A stretch of 64,000 nt of DNA from Glutamicibacter halophytocola (GTDB lineage Bacteria; Actinomycetota; Actinomycetes; Actinomycetales; Micrococcaceae), in NCBI RefSeq assembly GCF_001302565.1, contig NZ_CP012750.1, positions 2,790,001 through 2,854,000 on the forward strand, read 5' to 3'. This document shows, one piece after another, positions 566 through 52,485 of the stretch. The position numbers and the translations under genes are program-made. Under the pieces are notes generated by a model. That model was not told the origin of the DNA. It saw nothing but the letters and a program-made list of their open reading frames with translations, and did no database searches. Each line of letters opens with the position of its first letter. The first letter of the stretch is position 1.

Positions 566-1756
566 CTAGTTGGCGATGCAGTCCCCGGTCTTGACCGAGG
601 TGCGCTGCGATCCGCCGAGCTCCATGGCGCGCTCCATCTCCTCTAGGCTCAGGGCGAATCCAACCTGCTCGTCGCTGCGGGACTTCGCGAAGATCAAGCC
701 AACGGCCTCGCCGCTTTCATCCACCAGCGGGCCACCGGAATTGCCCTGGGCCACTTCGGCGGTGATCTGGTAGACGGAAATTCGCGACGGGTCGGTGCCG
801 TAGATATTGGAGATCGAGACGTTGGCCCGCGAGGCGATCATGGCGCTGCGAATCTGCTGGGGGCCACCAGCCGGGTAGCCGATAAACGCCGCGGCGTCGC
901 CACGGGTGAGATCCTCATCGGCCAGGTCAATGGCCGGGGCCTCCAAGCCCTGCACGTACAGCAGCGCGATATCGGTCTCGGGATCGAAGTAGACCACCTT
1001 TCCGCGGTGAACTCCGTCACGACCGGTCTCCACGGTGGCTGCCCCAAGACCGGCCACCACGTGGGCGTTGGTCATCACCATTTCTGGAGCCACCACAAAG
1101 CCCGAACCGGTCAGGTTGACACCGCATTGCACTGCCGTGCCCGAGACCTTGGCGGCGGATTCCGCTGCGGTCCGCTGGAGATCGGTGGCCACCCAGTCGG
1201 TGTCCATGGGCTGGGCCACCGGCGGCGCAAAGGGCTCCAGGAATGCTGGCAGGGTTTCGGCGATCACCTTGGAGCGGGCCGAGGAAATGGCCGAGTTCAC
1301 AAAGGGCGGCGTCGCGCCGCGAATGGCCTGGATCATGGTGGACTTTCCAATTTCCAGGGACAGGCGCGGAATGCCCATGCTGGAGGTGGAAAACGCCAGC
1401 GCGCCAATGATCGTGGCGGTAATCAGCACCGAGAGCACGCCACCGGCAATGCGGTCTGCAGAGCGCAGGAAATCGACGTTCATCCAGTGCCGGATGCGGG
1501 TGGCAATGACCCGGCCCAGCGCCTGGCCCAGGATGATCAGCACGGCAGCCGTGGCGGCCATCAGCGCAACACGCCACCAGGGGTTGTTGGCGAAAGTGGA
1601 AACCAGCGGGATGGCAAAGAACGCGGCAACACCTCCCAGAACGAGGCCCACCATGTCGCCAACGGTCAAGAGAAAACCGCGGCGAAGTCCGATAATGAAA
1701 AAGGTCAGCAAAACAGCGCAGATGACTACGTCGAGCCAGCTGAAAATTCCGAGCAC
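566..1756 (-). CDS. MarP-like membrane-anchored serine protease (CvpA + trypsin-like domain)
   Basis: The protein has two parts. An N-terminal CvpA-like membrane domain (about residues 1-130) carries four hydrophobic segments. It is followed by a chymotrypsin-fold protease domain expected outside the membrane. The catalytic triad can be read as His232 (NAHVVAG), Asp262 (TDIALL) and Ser340 (GNSGGP). The architecture matches mycobacterial MarP, a periplasmic protease needed for acid resistance; that role here is inferred from the family. GTG at 1756 was chosen because GGAG lies 5 nt upstream; the TTG at 1759 would have only a 2-nt spacer. The gene diverges from the Crp-family regulator, as is common in actinobacteria. 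Confidence 0.88.
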   Translation of the reverse strand: MLGIFSWLDVVICAVLLTFFIIGLRRGFLLTVGDMVGLVLGGVAAFFAIPLVSTFANNPWWRVALMAATAAVLIILGQALGRVIATRIRHWMNVDFLRSADRIAGGVLSVLITATIIGALAFSTSSMGIPRLSLEIGKSTMIQAIRGATPPFVNSAISSARSKVIAETLPAFLEPFAPPVAQPMDTDWVATDLQRTAAESAAKVSGTAVQCGVNLTGSGFVVAPEMVMTNAHVVAGLGAATVETGRDGVHRGKVVYFDPETDIALLYVQGLEAPAIDLADEDLTRGDAAAFIGYPAGGPQQIRSAMIASRANVSISNIYGTDPSRISVYQITAEVAQGNSGGPLVDESGEAVGLIFAKSRSDEQVGFALSLEEMERAMELGGSQRTSVKTGDCIAN

Positions 1757-1887
1757 CAAGACTCCAATGCATTCAAATACTTTGTATTAACCCAAGGTAC
1801 CCTTAGAAGCTGATGGATTTCTGCGAGCATATTCGCGAGTTTTGGCCGAATGAGCGTGACGTTCAACATTTTCTCGGTGAAACCACG

Positions 1888-1903
1888 TGTGGAAACTGTC
1901 ACA
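1888..1903 (+). promoter_or_regulatory. Crp/GlxR-type operator
   Basis: A 16-bp site, TGTGG-N6-TCACA, matches the Crp/GlxR consensus TGTGA-N6-TCACA in 9 of 10 half-site bases. It lies 57 bp before the start of the Crp-family gene and about 130 bp before the divergent protease gene. This position suggests autoregulation and possible co-control of both genes. Confidence 0.65.
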
Positions 1904-1960
1904 TTGTTACTGAATACGGCACAATGAAGTAAGCGCCTACTACTGTTGACAGGAGATTTA

Positions 1961-2638
1961 ATGGATATCGAGGTACTGCGTCGCGCGCCACTGTTTGCGT
2001 CGCTTGGTGATGAAGTATTCGCCGCGCTCACCGAAGAATTGACCGAGGTTGATCTGTCCCGCGGTGCGTCGGTGTTCCGTGAAGGCGATCAGGGCGACCG
2101 CCTGTACTTCATCGTTTCGGGCAAGATCAAGCTGGGCCGCACCTCTTCGGATGGTCGCGAAAACCTGATTGCTGTTCTTGGCCCAGGCGAACTGTTTGGC
2201 GAGATGGCCCTATTCGATCCACACCCACGCAACGCGACTGCAACCGCCGTGTCGGAAACCCGACTGGCTGGCTTGAGCCACGAGAACATGCGCAAGGCGA
2301 TCCTGAACTCCCCTGAGGTCTCGATCCAGCTGCTGCAGGCTCTGGCTGCACGTCTGCGCCGCACCAACGAGTCCCTTGCGGACTTGGTCTTCTCCGATGT
2401 TCCTGGCCGTGTTGCCAAGGCTCTGCTTGATCTTGCTGACCGCTTCGGCCGTCCAGCAACCGACGGCATCCTGGTCGCTCACGAGCTGACTCAGGAAGAG
2501 CTGGCCCAGCTGGTTGGCGCATCGCGTGAAACCGTAAACAAGGCTTTGGCTGAATTTGTACAGCGCGGCTGGCTGCGCCTGGAAGCACGCGCCGTCGTGA
2601 TTCTGGACATCCAGCGTCTGCGCCAGCGTTCACGCTAA
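1961..2638 (+). CDS. Crp/Fnr-family cAMP-responsive regulator (GlxR/Crp type)
   Basis: This 225-aa dimeric transcription factor has an N-terminal cyclic-nucleotide domain (about 1-120), a dimerisation helix and a C-terminal winged helix (about 150-225). The phosphate-binding cassette FGEMALFDPHPRNATATA is intact, which suggests cAMP binding. The recognition helix region reads TQEELAQLVGASRETVNKAL, as in actinobacterial Crp/GlxR. ATG 1961 follows AGGAG at 1951-1955 with a 5-nt spacer; the in-frame TTG at 1946 lies upstream of that ribosome site. A near-consensus Crp operator sits just upstream. In corynebacteria and mycobacteria, members of this family are global regulators of carbon metabolism. 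Confidence 0.92.
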   Translation: MDIEVLRRAPLFASLGDEVFAALTEELTEVDLSRGASVFREGDQGDRLYFIVSGKIKLGRTSSDGRENLIAVLGPGELFGEMALFDPHPRNATATAVSETRLAGLSHENMRKAILNSPEVSIQLLQALAARLRRTNESLADLVFSDVPGRVAKALLDLADRFGRPATDGILVAHELTQEELAQLVGASRETVNKALAEFVQRGWLRLEARAVVILDIQRLRQRSR

Positions 2639-2645
2639 GCCAGTC

Positions 2646-2696
2646 AAAATAGTGTGGGCCGAAGATCCTTTTGGATCTTCGGCCCACACTATTTTT
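2646..2696. terminator. bidirectional intrinsic terminator
   Basis: A perfect 23-bp stem (2646-2668 with 2673-2695) closes a TTTT loop. T residues flank it on the plus strand and A residues on the other side. It lies between the convergent Crp-family and NUDIX genes and should stop both transcripts. Confidence 0.9.
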
Positions 2697-2713
2697 ATGT
2701 TGTTCTAGCTAAT

Positions 2714-3631
2714 TCATTGGCGGCCCGCGGCGGCCTGCCAGGGGCGCGAGGATTCGGCACTCATCGAGCCCAGAACCTCCAGATAGTAAATGCCGTCGCG
2801 CACCAGCAAGTCGGGGTGCTTCAAATCCAGGGACCGCGCCCGCGACAAATACGCCACCACCCCGTTGGCCTCGGACATTGCCTCGAGCATCATTTCCACG
2901 GCCGGGTAGCTGATCCGCGAGAAGTTCAGGCCCACGGTATTGGGCTGCCCCACCAGGTCGCCGAGCTCGCTGGTGTTTCGCTGGGCCAACACGCCGCTGG
3001 CCACCTGCCACCCGCCCCATTTGCCCTTGCCTCGAAGCAGCGTCGCCTCTTGGCGGTTGGGCACGGTGGCTGCGAAGTACCAGGTATCAAATCTGCGCAG
3101 GGCAAAGTTGGGATTCAGCCAGTGCGAGACCGGCCGCAATAAATCGGTGCGAAGCCCCAGGCCGCGACGGCGAAGAAACTCATCGAATGGAAGATCCTGG
3201 CCGGCAATCGCCTCGCGGGCGCCCATCCACTCTTCGGGGTCGGTCATTTCGATGATGGATTGCTCGTCGGTACCCGCCAGCAGGATTCCGGTTTCTTCAA
3301 AGAGCTCGCGAATGGCGCAAACGATATGCGCTTGGACCAGCTGCTGGTCCAATACGTCCATGCGCTTGGACCACTGCGAAAGGCTCGGTCCGAACCATTG
3401 ATAGGTTGCCCGGTCGCTGGCCTCGTGGCTGCCGCCGGGGAAGGCCACGTTGCCCATCGGGGAGCCTCCAGGCCGAAAGGTCAGGTAGGTCTCGACGCCC
3501 TTGGAACAGTCCCGCACCAGGCACACGGACGACGCGCGGCGCGGTGAGCGGGGGGTGCGGGAGCCGAAGGTGAACCAGTTTTCGGCCGTAGGGATCTGGT
3601 GTGGCGGCAGATCAAAGACTCTGCGCACCAT
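2714..3631 (-). CDS. NUDIX hydrolase with an insertion in the Nudix box (NUDT19-like)
   Basis: The 305-aa protein has a split Nudix motif. GGSHEASD (the GX5E part) is followed by about 30 extra residues before REL-FEETG (the REXXEEXG part). Family knowledge: such an insertion is typical of NUDT19-type hydrolases acting on CoA or acyl-CoA, so a CoA or nucleotide-diphosphate substrate is plausible but unproven. ATG 3631 was chosen because residues upstream in this frame overlap ridA and do not look like protein. A TTG at 3682 just after the ridA stop is an alternative; neither start has a good ribosome site. It is the last gene of a DUF4177-ridA-NUDIX operon. Confidence 0.82.
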   Translation of the reverse strand: MVRRVFDLPPHQIPTAENWFTFGSRTPRSPRRASSVCLVRDCSKGVETYLTFRPGGSPMGNVAFPGGSHEASDRATYQWFGPSLSQWSKRMDVLDQQLVQAHIVCAIRELFEETGILLAGTDEQSIIEMTDPEEWMGAREAIAGQDLPFDEFLRRRGLGLRTDLLRPVSHWLNPNFALRRFDTWYFAATVPNRQEATLLRGKGKWGGWQVASGVLAQRNTSELGDLVGQPNTVGLNFSRISYPAVEMMLEAMSEANGVVAYLSRARSLDLKHPDLLVRDGIYYLEVLGSMSAESSRPWQAAAGRQ

Positions 3632-46738: not shown

Positions 46739-47358
46739 CTCTTTCACTGTGGTTTTCCCTGCTCAGCGCCTGCATCATCATCAGCTTCACTCCCGGTGCT
46801 GGCGCCATCAACACCATGAACAATTCGATGCGCCAAGGCTGGCGCGCCTCCATCTGGGGCATCCTCGGACAGCAAATCGCCTTGCTCATCCATGTAGTGA
46901 TTGTCGCCGCCGGCGTTGGAATCCTGGTAGCCAATAGCCCAGCGCTCTTTGCCATCATCCGATATGCCGGAGCGGCCTACCTGGTGTATCTGGGAATCCG
47001 AATGCTGCTGTCCAAGCCGGAAGTGGCCTCCGATGGAACCACCTCGGGGCGGCAGCTGACCCGACGCGCGATGCTCAACCGCGGGATCCTGGTCAACTTG
47101 CTCAATCCCAAGGCCATCGTGTTCTTTTTGGCTTTCACCCCGCAATTCATCAACGCGGATCAGCCGCTGCTGGGTCAATACGCGTTGTACATCGGAACGG
47201 TCATCGCCGTGGACATCCTGGTGATGTACTTCTTCTTTGCCGGAACCGCACGCACTTTCCAGCGCTTCACCGCCACCTACCGCGGCGCAAAGATGCTGAA
47301 CATCCTCTTCGGGGTCCTGTTCATCCTTGTCGCTCTTCTGCTGCTGTTCCTGCACTAG
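46735..47358 (+). CDS. LysE-family amino-acid exporter (RhtB type)
   Basis: The 207-aa membrane protein has five to six helices and the LysE/RhtB signatures FTPGAGAINTMNNSMRQGWRASIWGILGQQIALLI and GAAYLVYLGIRMLLS. It should export an amino acid or derivative; the substrate is unknown. The GTG start overlaps the marR stop. Its place behind the MarR gene suggests control by the same regulator as the MMPL exporter. Confidence 0.9.
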   Translation: MTLSLWFSLLSACIIISFTPGAGAINTMNNSMRQGWRASIWGILGQQIALLIHVVIVAAGVGILVANSPALFAIIRYAGAAYLVYLGIRMLLSKPEVASDGTTSGRQLTRRAMLNRGILVNLLNPKAIVFFLAFTPQFINADQPLLGQYALYIGTVIAVDILVMYFFFAGTARTFQRFTATYRGAKMLNILFGVLFILVALLLLFLH

Positions 47359-47436
47359 CGGCATCAACCCTGAAACGTTACCGATTTATGCCCGACTTTC
47401 GGGCGCGTAGCTATCGCACCAGAGCGCTTGTGCCCA

Positions 47437-47442
47437 TAGACT
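47437..47442 (+). promoter_or_regulatory. -10 element of the LMW phosphatase gene (leaderless)
   Basis: TAGACT ends 6 nt before the ATG at 47449. Confidence 0.55.
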
Positions 47443-47448
47443 GATGCC

Positions 47449-47958
47449 ATGTTCCGGATAATGATCGTGTGCACGGGGAATATCTGCCGTTCGCCTATGG
47501 CCGAGTACATGCTCAAAGACGCCTTGGTTAATGCCGACGTCAACGAAGTTCAAGTACTCTCGCGGGCCATCACCGACGGCGAAGTCGGCAACCCCATCGA
47601 CGAGCGCGCCGCCAGCATCCTGCACAGCCATGGACTGGACGCCTCAGAACATGTCGCTGCCCAAATCGACGCCGATGAATTGGCCGATATGGATCTCGTC
47701 CTGGCCATGGACACCGACCACTTCGAAGAACTGGTACCAGAGTTGGCGGAGCTCGACCCGTCGCAACGACCTCAGCTGCGCATGTTCCGCTCCTTTGATC
47801 CGCAGGCCGCCAGCTCGCCGCATGACCGCCAGGGCGTTTACGACCCCTGGTATGGCGATGCCGGCGACTTCCGTGAAACCTGGAAACTTATTTCTGCTTC
47901 CCTGCCCGCCCTTGTAGATTACGTGCGGAGTAATATCGCTTCTCGTGGAAACCGCTAG
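47449..47958 (+). CDS. low-molecular-weight protein phosphatase
   Basis: The 169-aa cytoplasmic phosphatase has the P-loop Cys8-TGNIC-Arg14-S near the N-terminus and the acid motif DPWYGD near the C-terminus, both needed for catalysis. The family acts on phosphotyrosine or, in the McsB-linked branch, phosphoarginine; the Thr after Cys8 resembles YwlE-type arginine phosphatases, but this is only suggestive. Its end overlaps the next gene (P-loop kinase-PabB fusion) by 14 nt. Confidence 0.92.
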   Translation: MFRIMIVCTGNICRSPMAEYMLKDALVNADVNEVQVLSRAITDGEVGNPIDERAASILHSHGLDASEHVAAQIDADELADMDLVLAMDTDHFEELVPELAELDPSQRPQLRMFRSFDPQAASSPHDRQGVYDPWYGDAGDFRETWKLISASLPALVDYVRSNIASRGNR

Positions 47959-49960
47959 ACCAACTTTCATTGCCATTGATGGACGCTCCGGTTCAGGCAA
48001 AAGCACCTTCTCATCAGACCTAGCGCAACGCCTCTCAGCCACTTCGCCGGTGGCTGTGCTGCGCCTGGAAGACCTCTATCAAGGCTGGCACGGACTGGGC
48101 CATGCCTGCGAGCTGTACAACCAGTTGCTTCCTGCACTGGCCCGCGGGGAACAAGTCGCCTACCCCACCTGGGATTGGGCCGCTGGCTGCCTGGGGGAAC
48201 AGCAAATCTTCTCCCCGGGCAGGATCGTGATCATCGAAGGTGTCGGCGCGCTCAATGACCAGGCGGCGAGCTTCATCGATGTGGGCATCTGGCTTGACGC
48301 GCCAGAGGACCTTCGGCGCGAGCGCGCCCTCGCCCGCGACGGCCAGACCTACACGCCATTCTGGAGCACCTGGGCTGATCAGGAAAACGGCTATCTGGCC
48401 GCAAATTCGCCGGAGCACCATGCTGACTTGGTCATCAACACCGCAACACTCGCCGATCCGCTCTCCGCCCTGGTCGAGGCTTCGCGGTTTCTGCCGGCAG
48501 GGAGCAAGCCATTGGGCCTGATCGGGTCCCAGGCCAACAGCGTGCCCACGCTGCGCCAAAGCTATCAAGCACCAGCCGACGCGGCCGCGCTCTTCGAAGC
48601 GCTCACCGAGCGGCTGCCGCATGCAGCCCTGCTGGAATCCACCAGCCAGCATCTGGAGGATCCGCTAGGACGCAACCGGTATTCCCTGCTCGCATTCTCC
48701 ACCGCCCAGCAACCCCCGCTGCTCACCGCCGATGCCAGCGGAACCACGCTCCGCCTTCCCGGTGCACGCGTGCAACTGGGCCACGGCTTTTTTGATTCGC
48801 TCGCAGGGCTGTGGCCGCCAACCGCTCCGCTGGACACCGAGTACCCCTTGCCGTTGTGGGTCGGCTACCTGGGCTACGAGCTCAAGCGCGAAGTGGGTGC
48901 CGCGAATCTCCACGCGCACATCGCTGAGGGATCCTGCCGTCCCGACGCGCAATTCTTCGCCCCCGATACCATCGTGGTCATCGACCACCAGCTTTCGCGG
49001 ATGCACCTGCACAGCACCGGCAAACCGGATGCCGCCATCACCATCCTGCTAGGCAATCCGCCATCGCATCGCGCCAGTGCAGCACTCCCCGTTCCGCAAT
49101 TCAGCTGCGCCGACACGGCCTCCGGATACCAGGAGAAGATACGCCGTGCCCAGCATGAAATCTACGAGGGCAACACCTACGAGGTTTGCCTGACCACCGA
49201 GCTGACAGCCCATGCAGAGGACTTCAACCCCTTCGAAGCCTACTGCCGGATGCGCCAGTCCAGCCCGGCGCCGTTTGCGCACTATCTTCGGCTCACCGAT
49301 CTTGAAGTCGCCAGCATCTCCCCCGAGCGCTTCCTTGCGCTGTCCAAGAACGGCCGGCTGCGCGCCGAGCCGATCAAGGGAACCCGGCCGCGAGGCATCG
49401 ACGAGGAAACCGATCTGGCGCTCAAGCATGATTTGGCCACGCATCCCAAGGATCGTGCCGAGAACATCATGATCGTCGACCTGTTGCGCAACGATCTCTC
49501 CCATCATGCGGTGCCGGGGTCGGTGCGCGTGACCCGGCTGTGCTCGGTGGAAAGCTATGCCACGGTGCACCAAATGGTCTCCACCATTGATGCAGCCTTG
49601 CAGTCCCCAGAACTTGCAGCCGATGCTTTGCGCGAAGCCTTCCCGCCCGGATCGATGACCGGCGCCCCCAAGCTATCGACCATGAACATCTTGGACGAAC
49701 TCGAAGAGCATCGGGCGCGCGGCTTGTATTCCGGCGCCGTGGGCTATCTCGGGGCCGATGGAGCCGCGGATTTCTCGGTAGTCATCCGCACCCTGGTCTG
49801 CGACAGGCTCCCCGACCAGTCGTGGCGCTTGTCGCTGGGACTCGGCGGCGCCATCACCGCGGATTCGGTGCCTCAGGATGAATGGGACGAAGTCATCACC
49901 AAGTCCCGTGGCGTGCTCCAGGCGCTGGGAGCCAGCTTCCCAGCCGCTACTGCAAGGTAG
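47945..49960 (+). CDS. pabB: fusion of a P-loop kinase-like domain with aminodeoxychorismate synthase component I (PabB)
   Basis: The 671-aa protein joins two unrelated units. Residues 1-185 look like a uridine-kinase-type P-loop NTPase: IDGRSGSGKST (Lys19), RLEDLYQGW, IIEGVGAL (Walker B-like), RRERALARDG. Residues about 205-665 are PabB: an N-terminal lobe with GRNRYSLLAF, then PIKGTRPRG with catalytic Lys478, AENIMIVDLLRNDL, PPGSMTGAPK, GAVGYLG and GGAITADSVPQDEW. PIKGT rather than PIAGT supports aminodeoxychorismate synthase over anthranilate synthase. It makes the folate precursor ADC with a PabA glutaminase, not seen here. GTG 47945 has TAATAT 8 nt upstream. pabC is nearby. Its 3' end overlaps the convergent cardiolipin synthase gene by 14 bp. 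Confidence 0.88.
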   Translation: METARPTFIAIDGRSGSGKSTFSSDLAQRLSATSPVAVLRLEDLYQGWHGLGHACELYNQLLPALARGEQVAYPTWDWAAGCLGEQQIFSPGRIVIIEGVGALNDQAASFIDVGIWLDAPEDLRRERALARDGQTYTPFWSTWADQENGYLAANSPEHHADLVINTATLADPLSALVEASRFLPAGSKPLGLIGSQANSVPTLRQSYQAPADAAALFEALTERLPHAALLESTSQHLEDPLGRNRYSLLAFSTAQQPPLLTADASGTTLRLPGARVQLGHGFFDSLAGLWPPTAPLDTEYPLPLWVGYLGYELKREVGAANLHAHIAEGSCRPDAQFFAPDTIVVIDHQLSRMHLHSTGKPDAAITILLGNPPSHRASAALPVPQFSCADTASGYQEKIRRAQHEIYEGNTYEVCLTTELTAHAEDFNPFEAYCRMRQSSPAPFAHYLRLTDLEVASISPERFLALSKNGRLRAEPIKGTRPRGIDEETDLALKHDLATHPKDRAENIMIVDLLRNDLSHHAVPGSVRVTRLCSVESYATVHQMVSTIDAALQSPELAADALREAFPPGSMTGAPKLSTMNILDELEEHRARGLYSGAVGYLGADGAADFSVVIRTLVCDRLPDQSWRLSLGLGGAITADSVPQDEWDEVITKSRGVLQALGASFPAATAR

Positions 49961-51443
49961 CGGTCAAGCGGGCCACATTGTCGATCCAGCGCTGCATGCG
50001 CGGACGGCGGCGCCACTGCGACAAGGTAATTTCCGAAGAAATCTCCCGATAGTGGTTCTGCACCGCATTCACGGCATCGACCATGTCCTTGCCCAGGAGC
50101 ATGACCGAAATTTCCATGTTCAAGCTGAATGAGCGCATGTCCATATTCGAGGAGCCCACCACGGCGACGTCATCGTCCACGGTGAAGCACTTGGTATGCA
50201 GGACCATCGGAGCGGGATAGCAGTGGATGCGCACGCCTGCTTCCAGCAGTTGCTGGTAGTAGGACTGCTGCGCGTGATGGACCAGGAACTGGTCTCCTTC
50301 TTCACAGACGAACAGTTCCACTTCCACCCCGCGCTGCGCGGCCGTGGTGATCGCATAAAGCAGCGAATCGTCGGGGACAAAGTAGGGGCTGGTAATTTCC
50401 AGGCGTTCGGACGCCGAGTAGATCAGCGTGTTGAACAGGCGCAGGTTATTCTCCGTGCCAAAGCCCGGACCGCTGGGAAGCAGCTGGGCCAGAGTAGAGC
50501 CCGGGCGCTCTTCATAAGCCAGCGGATGCCGTGCCTCGTTCATGTCCATCAGCACTTCTTGGTCGTCATCCTCTTGCCACCAGTCGATGGCAAAGGTCAC
50601 GTCCAGGCTGCGCACCAATGGGCCTTCAACGCGAAGCATCATTTCAACCCATTCACGCCCGACCTTGTGCGAGGACTTGCGCTTGTAGCCGGGCTCAATC
50701 AAGTTCTGGCTTCCGGTGAAGCCGACTTCCCCGTCGATCACCAAGATCTTGCGGTGGTTGCGCAAATCCGGGCGGCGCCAGCGCCGGCCAATCAGGTCGA
50801 TGGGCAGCATCGGACGCCAATTGATGCCCGACTTCTTGAGCCGTTTTTTCAGCTCGCCATAGCCCTTGACCCGCAAGGTGCCCAGGTGGTCGAAGAGCAA
50901 GCGCACGTGCACCCCGCGCTGGACTGCCCGCTCCAGCGCGTCGAGCACCGGTCCAACATATTCTTCGTCATCACCCATGATGTAGAACTGGATGTGGACA
51001 TAGCGGGTGGCCTTGTCGATTTCTTCGCGCATCGACTCCATGGAGGAACGATACTCGGAAATCACCTCGACACTGTTGCCGCCTTCCAGCGGCATCGCGC
51101 CGAGGTTGCGGTTGAGCATCACCGCGGATTCAACCCACTCTTCTTGTGAATGGAACTCCTCCGGCATCTGCATGTGCCTGGTGGCATCCATGATCTGCGC
51201 ATGGGCGCGTTGCTGCTTTTCCAAGCGGCGGCGAGAAAGGCGCGGATTGGCAAACAGCCAGTAGGCCAGCAGCCCGACCACGGGGAGGAAGAAGATCGCC
51301 AGCAACCAGGCCATGGCCGTTGTCGGGCGCCGATTGCCGGGGACGATGCCGATCATGAAGTAGCGAACCGCGAGTTCGATAGCGACCAGGATGCTCCACA
51401 GCACGCCACCGATTTGCACCAGCACTTCATTGCTTGGCAACAC
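49947..51443 (-). CDS. cardiolipin synthase (phospholipase D family)
   Basis: The 498-aa membrane enzyme joins two phosphatidylglycerols to cardiolipin. Two N-terminal helices (about 8-30 and 40-63) are followed by two HKD half-sites: HRKILVIDGEVGFTGSQNL and HTKCFTVDDDVAVVGSSNMDMRSF. Length is close to bacterial ClsA. GTG 51443 was chosen because AAGGGGG lies 7 nt upstream; the GTG at 51467 lies before that site. The 3' end overlaps the convergent pabB gene. Confidence 0.92.
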   Translation of the reverse strand: MLPSNEVLVQIGGVLWSILVAIELAVRYFMIGIVPGNRRPTTAMAWLLAIFFLPVVGLLAYWLFANPRLSRRRLEKQQRAHAQIMDATRHMQMPEEFHSQEEWVESAVMLNRNLGAMPLEGGNSVEVISEYRSSMESMREEIDKATRYVHIQFYIMGDDEEYVGPVLDALERAVQRGVHVRLLFDHLGTLRVKGYGELKKRLKKSGINWRPMLPIDLIGRRWRRPDLRNHRKILVIDGEVGFTGSQNLIEPGYKRKSSHKVGREWVEMMLRVEGPLVRSLDVTFAIDWWQEDDDQEVLMDMNEARHPLAYEERPGSTLAQLLPSGPGFGTENNLRLFNTLIYSASERLEITSPYFVPDDSLLYAITTAAQRGVEVELFVCEEGDQFLVHHAQQSYYQQLLEAGVRIHCYPAPMVLHTKCFTVDDDVAVVGSSNMDMRSFSLNMEISVMLLGKDMVDAVNAVQNHYREISSEITLSQWRRRPRMQRWIDNVARLTATLQ

Positions 51444-51597
51444 TAAGGCACCCCCTTGGCAATGCACGATGATCGACGCAATTTTCGGCTCTGATCTGCG
51501 TCAGGCAGCTCAAATGCCTCCGCCCAGCTTATCTAAGATTCTTCGCCTTGTCTGAACACCATTCAGAAGAAAGGCCACGGAAGTGGCATGGGTTCGA

Positions 51598-51609: not shown

Positions 51610-52485
51610 ATGAGCTCACTAGTATTCTTGGATCCGGCCTATCCGGCAGGCTACTTGGCCGATATTTCAGCACCCCAGCTTCTGGTCACCGCGCAGGGAG
51701 TCACCCGCGGTGACGGTGTTTTCGAATCGATGCTCTACACCAACCAGGCTGTCCGAAAAATCGAGGCCCACTTGGCCCGCCTGGCCACCTCGGCCGAGGT
51801 GGCCGATCTGGTCATCCCCGATGCGCGCAGCTGGTACGCGGCGGTGGATACCGCAGTCGCCGACTTTGATGCCACCGGCGGCGCCGAAGAAGCAGTGGTC
51901 AAGCTAGTTGCAGCCCGCGGCCAGCACGATGAGGATCCGGCCATCTGCTGGGTCACGGTCACCCCGGCCCCGGCCTTGGGCAAGGAACAGCGCGAGACCG
52001 GTGTCGACGTGTTGCTGCTGGATCGCGGCTACGACTCGAAACTCTCCGAACGCGCACCGTGGCTGATGATGGGCGCCAAAACCCTGTCCTACTCAGTGAA
52101 CATGGCGGCCCTGCGCTACGCCCGCAAGCACGGAGCCCACGACGTCATTTTCACCTCGGCCGACGGCATCGTGCTCGAAGCGCCAACCTCTACCGTGCTG
52201 GTGGCCCAGCGCGATGGCGAGACCAAGCGCCTGCTGACCCCGATGCTGGAAACCGGCATCTTGCCGGGAACCACGCAGAGCGCCATTTTTGATGCGGCAG
52301 CCCAGGATGGCTGGGAACTGGGCTACGGCCCATTGCGTCCCGAGGACCTCTACCAGGCAGACGGCGTATGGCTGGTTTCTTCCATCCGCCTGCTCACCCC
52401 GGTGCGCACCATCGACGCCAAGCCGCTGCGCTTGGACGCCGAGCTCCATGAAGAGCTCAGCGCCCTCAGCGAGGCGATCCGCTAG
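51610..52485 (+). CDS. pabC: aminodeoxychorismate lyase / class IV aminotransferase
   Basis: The 291-aa PLP enzyme has QGVTRGDGVFESMLYTNQ near the start, the PLP lysine in GAKTLSYSVNMAALRYARKHGA, VLEAPTSTVLV and TGILPGTTQSAIF. These fit fold-type IV enzymes; the close pabB and the length favour ADC lyase, which makes p-aminobenzoate, over D-amino-acid or branched-chain aminotransferase. It is separated from pabB by the oppositely oriented cardiolipin synthase gene and overlaps the ECF transporter gene by 4 bp at the 3' end. Confidence 0.85.
   Translation: MSSLVFLDPAYPAGYLADISAPQLLVTAQGVTRGDGVFESMLYTNQAVRKIEAHLARLATSAEVADLVIPDARSWYAAVDTAVADFDATGGAEEAVVKLVAARGQHDEDPAICWVTVTPAPALGKEQRETGVDVLLLDRGYDSKLSERAPWLMMGAKTLSYSVNMAALRYARKHGAHDVIFTSADGIVLEAPTSTVLVAQRDGETKRLLTPMLETGILPGTTQSAIFDAAAQDGWELGYGPLRPEDLYQADGVWLVSSIRLLTPVRTIDAKPLRLDAELHEELSALSEAIR

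Follow-up and report, generated by a model that had tools for sequence, protein, structure and literature searches.

Component I of aminodeoxychorismate synthase (PabB) has been described in single chains with other enzymes. The 4-amino-4-deoxychorismate (ADC) synthase of Streptomyces venezuelae (8hx6-8hx9) is a PabA-PabB chain, and in PabB-PabC fusions PabB is likewise joined to another enzyme, in that case one from the same pathway. The N-terminal partner in the S. venezuelae protein is the glutaminase. Here, we describe a gene of Glutamicibacter halophytocola in which PabB is preceded instead by a P-loop kinase-like domain, with no glutamine amidotransferase (GATase) domain. It lies in a stretch of 64,000 nucleotides of contig NZ_CP012750.1 (positions 2,790,001 to 2,854,000, forward strand), referred to below as the window. 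The fusion is real and old within Micrococcaceae, a soil-bacterial family, and we find it likely that it holds two independent enzymes. No account of a kinase-PabB architecture was found in the open-licence literature, as far as titles and the opening parts of abstracts tell.

The kinase half has unfused counterparts. It shares motifs with the NF005115/PRK06547 kinases, while remaining under their curated cut-off. Its identity to uridine-cytidine kinases (UCK; 3w8r, 1uej) is 21-25%. The protein of Bacillus stearothermophilus in 1rz3 is also unfused, and its title goes no further than "possible uridine kinase".

A kinase-like domain and PabB in one reading frame

The gene and its parts are as follows.

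47945-49960, + strand: kinase-PabB fusion gene, GTG start, 671 aa
47945..48499, + strand: N-terminal P-loop kinase half, residues ~1-185
48500..48556, + strand: junction, residues ~186-204
48557..49957, + strand: PabB half, residues 205-671, with Lys478 in PIKGT
Residues of interest in the kinase half: E42 D43; W76 D77 W78; E98 G99; R131 D132 G133; W140, W143, E147

The whole gene, 47945-49960 (+), reads as one open reading frame (ORF) of 671 codons with zero internal stops, in which the Pfam scan places PRK (PF00485; 38.6 bits, cut-off 22), Anth_synt_I_N (42.9 bits, cut-off 23) and Chorismate_bind (273.6 bits, cut-off 27). An earlier note on this DNA had claimed a kinase fused to a complete PabB in a single frame, with key residues intact in both halves; with three domains above cut-off the first claim was borne out, and Lys19 and Lys478 stand where they had been placed. 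The structure of the full chain was predicted confidently (mean predicted local distance difference test score, pLDDT, 89.7; predicted template modelling score, pTM, 0.91), with pLDDT dropping to 65-75 at the junction (blocks 181-200). No sigma-70-like promoter or terminator was matched within 47300-50100, which is a weak test in a G+C-rich genome.

The PabB half has the ADC synthase fold, and its catalytic chorismate-binding domain (PF00425) covers residues 393-653. The lysine of PIKGT sets PabB apart from TrpE; here it is Lys478, within EPIKGT (residues 475-480), and it is invariant in 48 aligned fusions. The top NCBIfam model for the whole protein is TIGR00553 pabB, at 323.7 bits against a cut-off of 328.4, which the fused relatives G172, G009 and G194 exceed. 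Judged by these scores, the orthologous group qualifies as PabB though this member falls just short. The Pfam scan found no GATase domain in the chain, which sets it outside the PabAB fusions; elsewhere in the source genome there are 8 glutaminase-type (PF00117) matches, including one named TrpG/PabA-type and one named HisH. The same genome has two dihydropteroate synthase (DHPS) genes over cut-off (C1:95120-95899 and C1:2370789-2371550).

In the kinase half, Lys19 belongs to the Walker A motif (DGRSGSGKS, residues 12-20). The top NCBIfam model for the N-terminal 200 residues is NF005115/PRK06547 ("hypothetical protein"), which covers 161 residues and scores 155.4 bits where the curated cut-off is 173, as for a diverged relative. 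All 197 sampled Micrococcaceae genomes remain under this cut-off; 20 genomes of the order pass it, and wherever their loci were read the kinase frame lacks PabB. Conservation was assessed over 48 fused, 19 unfused Micrococcaceae and 12 nearer outside rows, throughout which Lys19, W78, R131, D132, W140 and W143 never vary, while a single row lacks E98; the 48 fused rows all keep Lys19, E98, R131 and D132. In 7 remoter outside rows, Lys19, W78, E98 and R131 persist in every row and D132 and W140 in 6, with D in place of E42 and the YPGW motif gone.

Modelled alone (pLDDT 89.3), the kinase half shows the P-loop kinase fold of the UCK/phosphoribulokinase superfamily: uridine-cytidine kinases and phosphoribulokinases are its nearest structural neighbours, followed by the N-terminal domain of Tad2, pantothenate kinase and nicotinamide riboside kinase, and its best sequence-profile match in the PDB is 1rz3 (67.5 bits). 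The earlier description as uridine-kinase-type holds for this fold. It does not hold for the 12-residue stretch of Thermus thermophilus UCK containing NYDHPDAFD, which has no counterpart in the profile alignment, nor for the YDF of that enzyme, which is WDW here. We take the former to bind ribose, and the two together to be the ribose- and base-binding segments of uridine-cytidine kinase; since they are missing or replaced, uridine is an unlikely substrate on sequence grounds.

Spread of the fusion and separation of its halves

Relatives of the fusion were collected from genome contigs, and the best 80 of 565 loci were kept. These belong to genomes named Glutamicibacter, Paeniglutamicibacter, Arthrobacter, Paenarthrobacter and Pseudarthrobacter, and all 80 match across both halves (residue 1-9 to 665-671) with no stop between match start and end. 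A hand count puts the fusion in at least 119 of the 197 sampled Micrococcaceae genomes, which span 21 of 32 genera. The 119 comprise 77 genomes with spanning alignments, 36 further ones in which kinase and PabB matches share one contig and an equal open-frame length, and 6 (G043, G008, G060, G034, G128, G028) in which the fusion was read directly in fetched DNA. The whole fusion protein at E 1e-70 matches 141 of the 197 genomes, the 77 spanning alignments included. One stop codon occurs in 17 of the 77; it should lie at or near the end of the gene, since the kinase frame reaches at least 680 aa in 16 of them and the seventeenth (G013) was read as one frame. The kinase model NF005115 matches 190 of the 197 genomes at E 0.001, weakly (E above 1e-5) in five: G012, G042, G107, G153 and G078.

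A sequencing error or frameshift as the source of the fusion is ruled out by the one-frame fusions found throughout the relatives. The earlier note had considered a fusion by loss of a stop codon; taken as a recent accident, this is contradicted by the 119 or more fused genomes, as is its proviso that the halves might always be separate genes; a frameshift or missed stop between the halves, its other ground for doubt, is absent from the best 80 loci. Two genomes, G175 (L139) and G133 (L172), have the halves in different frames and are frameshifted copies or assembly errors; they were left out of the residue counts, but each half was entered on its own in the trees.

The halves also occur apart. 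The PabB tree (84 rows) unites the 48 fused rows, 10 rows of genus g13 (9 genomes), the two frameshifted copies and a second PabB copy, L200, in a clade supported at 100/100. The g13 PabB comes without a kinase and is sister to g4 (100/97); because it is nested in the fused clade, the simplest reading would be that g13 lost the kinase half. No convincing kinase was found in the 10 sampled g13 genomes (none in 6, matches at E 2.5e-5 to 3.9e-4 in 4), which do carry pabB-model matches. The copy L200 (G116:C1:1219500-1225500, 1703-3112, − strand) occurs beside an intact fusion in its genome; the kinase model finds nothing ahead of this PabB, and the preceding text resembles, by eye, a decayed kinase half.

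The opposite separation was seen in the kinase tree (88 rows), where three g32 kinases from genomes devoid of PabB cluster with five fused rows of that genus (99/88) and g6 clusters with g4 (93/85). As these kinases stand beside fused rows, PabB was lost and the kinase kept in g32 (3 genomes) and probably in g6. The unfused kinases of g3, g15, g16, g11 and g22 lie near the poorly resolved base of the tree, and for them descent from a kinase that was never fused explains the data equally well. The join may date from early in Micrococcaceae.

We also fetched 20 Micrococcaceae loci with a shorter kinase frame. One (L139) is the frameshifted fusion mentioned above, and the other 19 have a kinase without adjoining PabB. 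In 13 of these 19 genomes an additional, better PabB match lies elsewhere. By eye, a glutaminase-like stretch followed by PabB forms one frame at L186, L193, L194 and L196, PabB is followed by a PabC-like stretch at L187 and L188, and PabC-like text after the PabB match indicates PabB-PabC-type chains in G083 and G103. The remaining 6 genomes (G120, G183, G159, G131, G005, G036) have no recognisable PabB and hold just one or two matches, at the scores of TrpE and MenF in relatives, which they presumably represent. DHPS is present in all six (G183, G159, G131, G120, G005 and G036; L124, L127, L128, L125, L132 and L137, respectively), and PabC is still near the kinase in four (L124, L127, L128, L132). 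Possibly, these organisms are p-aminobenzoate (pABA) auxotrophs or use an alternative route.

Both halves are under selection. Pairwise ratios of nonsynonymous to synonymous substitution (dN/dS) were obtained with a Nei-Gojobori script; in several pairs synonymous sites approach saturation. Comparison of the window's gene with four relatives gave 0.125-0.364 for the kinase half and 0.059-0.090 for the PabB half (three pairs, the fourth being saturated), and the kinase half changes faster. For kinases of PabB-less genomes, dN/dS was 0.18-0.26 in g32 (three pairs) and 0.11-0.24 in g6 (two pairs); by this measure, purifying selection still acts on the kinase, which is intact, in the six genomes without PabB.

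Gene neighbourhood within and outside Micrococcaceae

Three genes adjoin or follow the fusion.

47449..47958, + strand: low-molecular-weight (LMW) phosphatase family protein (PF01451), overlapping the fusion gene by 14 nt; a common upstream neighbour in Micrococcaceae
49947..51467, − strand: gene between the fusion and pabC, from ORF reading, which we take to be cardiolipin synthase-like
51610..52485, + strand: PabC (aminodeoxychorismate lyase), next pathway step; NF005886 265.7 bits, cut-off 253

On the PabC gene NF005887 scores higher, yet misses its cut-off (273.8 vs 278). The 14-nt overlap of phosphatase and fusion, pointed out previously, was confirmed. Of the best 80 loci, 74 have the phosphatase gene upstream in the same orientation, overlapping the fusion in 51 of them (start codons chosen roughly), and PabC was found in 70. 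At the 19 loci with an unfused kinase the phosphatase was matched in 12 and PabC in 14, and in 7 of 8 fetched g13 loci the cardiolipin synthase-like gene and PabC lie within the same 16.5 kb.

Of 356 genomes sampled from the order, 240 carry an NF005115-type kinase (E 1e-25), compared with only 30 of 396 from the phylum (E 1e-20). No fusion beyond Micrococcaceae was found in the samples examined. PabB stands in the kinase frame at 2 of the 30 kinase loci of the phylum sample, both in Micrococcaceae genomes, and at none of 26 additional non-Micrococcaceae loci, which within 3.5 kb contain no PabB. Alignments spanning both halves were confined to family f1 among 396 genomes of the order, a weak indication, as fused members often show PabB-only alignments. 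In 44 non-Micrococcaceae genomes compared by hand, drafts included, the listed kinase and PabB matches lie on separate contigs or are divided by 52 kb or more. Several genomes of family f4, genus g37 (G538, G737, G848, G831, G772), have an unfused kinase ~70-77 kb from a PabB match, perhaps through mere shared gene order.

At 20 non-Micrococcaceae kinase loci of ~16 kb, both PabC and the LMW phosphatase were unmatched in all. PabB-like matches (tblastn) were found at L145 (~7 kb off) and L151 (~3 kb off), and at L155 a match of 79 bits, hence MenF-like, lies 0.7 kb from the kinase. A tie of the kinase to PabB or PabC by context outside Micrococcaceae was thus not found in these loci, bar the distant PabB-like matches at L145, L151 and L155. 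Ten neighbour proteins at such loci are mutually unrelated by Pfam (DinB-type IMS, DUF2017, ClpS, FAD-binding, FUSC, peptidases, RibD_C and PH-like; one without a match). At L148 (G358) one in-frame TAG interrupts the unfused kinase. The link between kinase and phosphatase activities proposed in the earlier note fades here: since the phosphatase is unmatched at the 20 outside loci, its adjacency looks like gene order shared by descent.

Two enzymes in one chain, and other readings

It is likely, in our view, that the chain is bifunctional, with a small-molecule kinase and ADC synthase component I working as independent enzymes. The PabB half would turn chorismate into ADC, drawing ammonia from a separately encoded glutaminase of the TrpG/PabA type, and PabC, 1.6 kb downstream, would then make pABA for folate. 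The N-terminal third would be an ATP-dependent, NF005115-like small-molecule kinase of the uridine kinase/phosphoribulokinase superfamily. Each half would be catalytically active, with no channelling between them. Joined early in Micrococcaceae, the halves would have been retained for shared expression, neither requiring the other, and some descendants would have shed the kinase and others PabB. It is this mutual independence that suggests a fusion of convenience, and we agree with the earlier note that the join has no obvious pathway reason.

Several points weigh against such a reading. The fusion persists across 21 genera, a persistence that could reflect functional coupling; the PabB half scores 4.7 bits less than the curated TIGR00553 cut-off; and just 2 of the 8 PF00117 matches were assigned a name. 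Moreover, support for g6 is under the starred level and the base of the kinase tree is unresolved, while the absence of PabB rests on scores, with TrpE and MenF labels inferred and not confirmed singly.

Rather unlikely, we think, is a functional coupling in which the kinase acts on, senses or gates the pABA/folate route, for example by ATP or metabolite binding that alters PabB. Retention in 21 of 32 sampled genera, PabC at 70 of the best 80 loci and a chain predicted as one confident unit would suit it. However, PabB persists without the kinase in g13, six genomes keep the kinase without recognised PabB, and the outside loci (20 without PabC or phosphatase matches, PabB-like matches being limited to L145, L151 and L155, and 26 further ones without PabB) offer no such connection; the separate occurrence of the halves likewise leaves unsupported the idea that the kinase phosphorylates a pathway substrate. 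Somewhat less probable still is a kinase with an undescribed small-molecule substrate whose fusion links a salvage or cofactor route to pABA supply through ATP or a metabolite, in Micrococcaceae only.

We regard it as improbable that the kinase-like half has no catalytic activity and serves in binding or folding, a role that the UCK-like domain fronting fission-yeast Tad2 (7eey) may have, given that all 48 fused rows retain Lys19, E98, R131 and D132 and that purifying selection persists without PabB. Finally, the kinase half can hardly be the organism's uridine/cytidine kinase: the UCK fold and the lack of a canonical udk (no TIGR00235 match in the source genome at 1e-15; its one other PF00485 protein CoaA-like by eye) would fit, but besides the missing stretch and the WDW its scores are far under the curated udk values (TIGR00235 42.2 vs 220.3; NF004018 50.3 vs 180), and among the 396 phylum genomes with kinase in 30 and udk-type in 54 (E 1e-15) both occur in 2, vs ~4 by chance. 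As for replacement of udk by the kinase, these genomes show no clear pattern either way.

With two independent enzymes as the preferred reading, PabB chains gain another type of partner besides PabA and PabC. Micrococcaceae offer a natural experiment, in which one fused protein appears to have shed its kinase in some lineages and its PabB in others. The kinase belongs to a conserved family, found in 240 of 356 genomes sampled from the order, and a small purified domain makes a search for its substrate feasible. Genomes that have DHPS but no recognised PabB should need external pABA.
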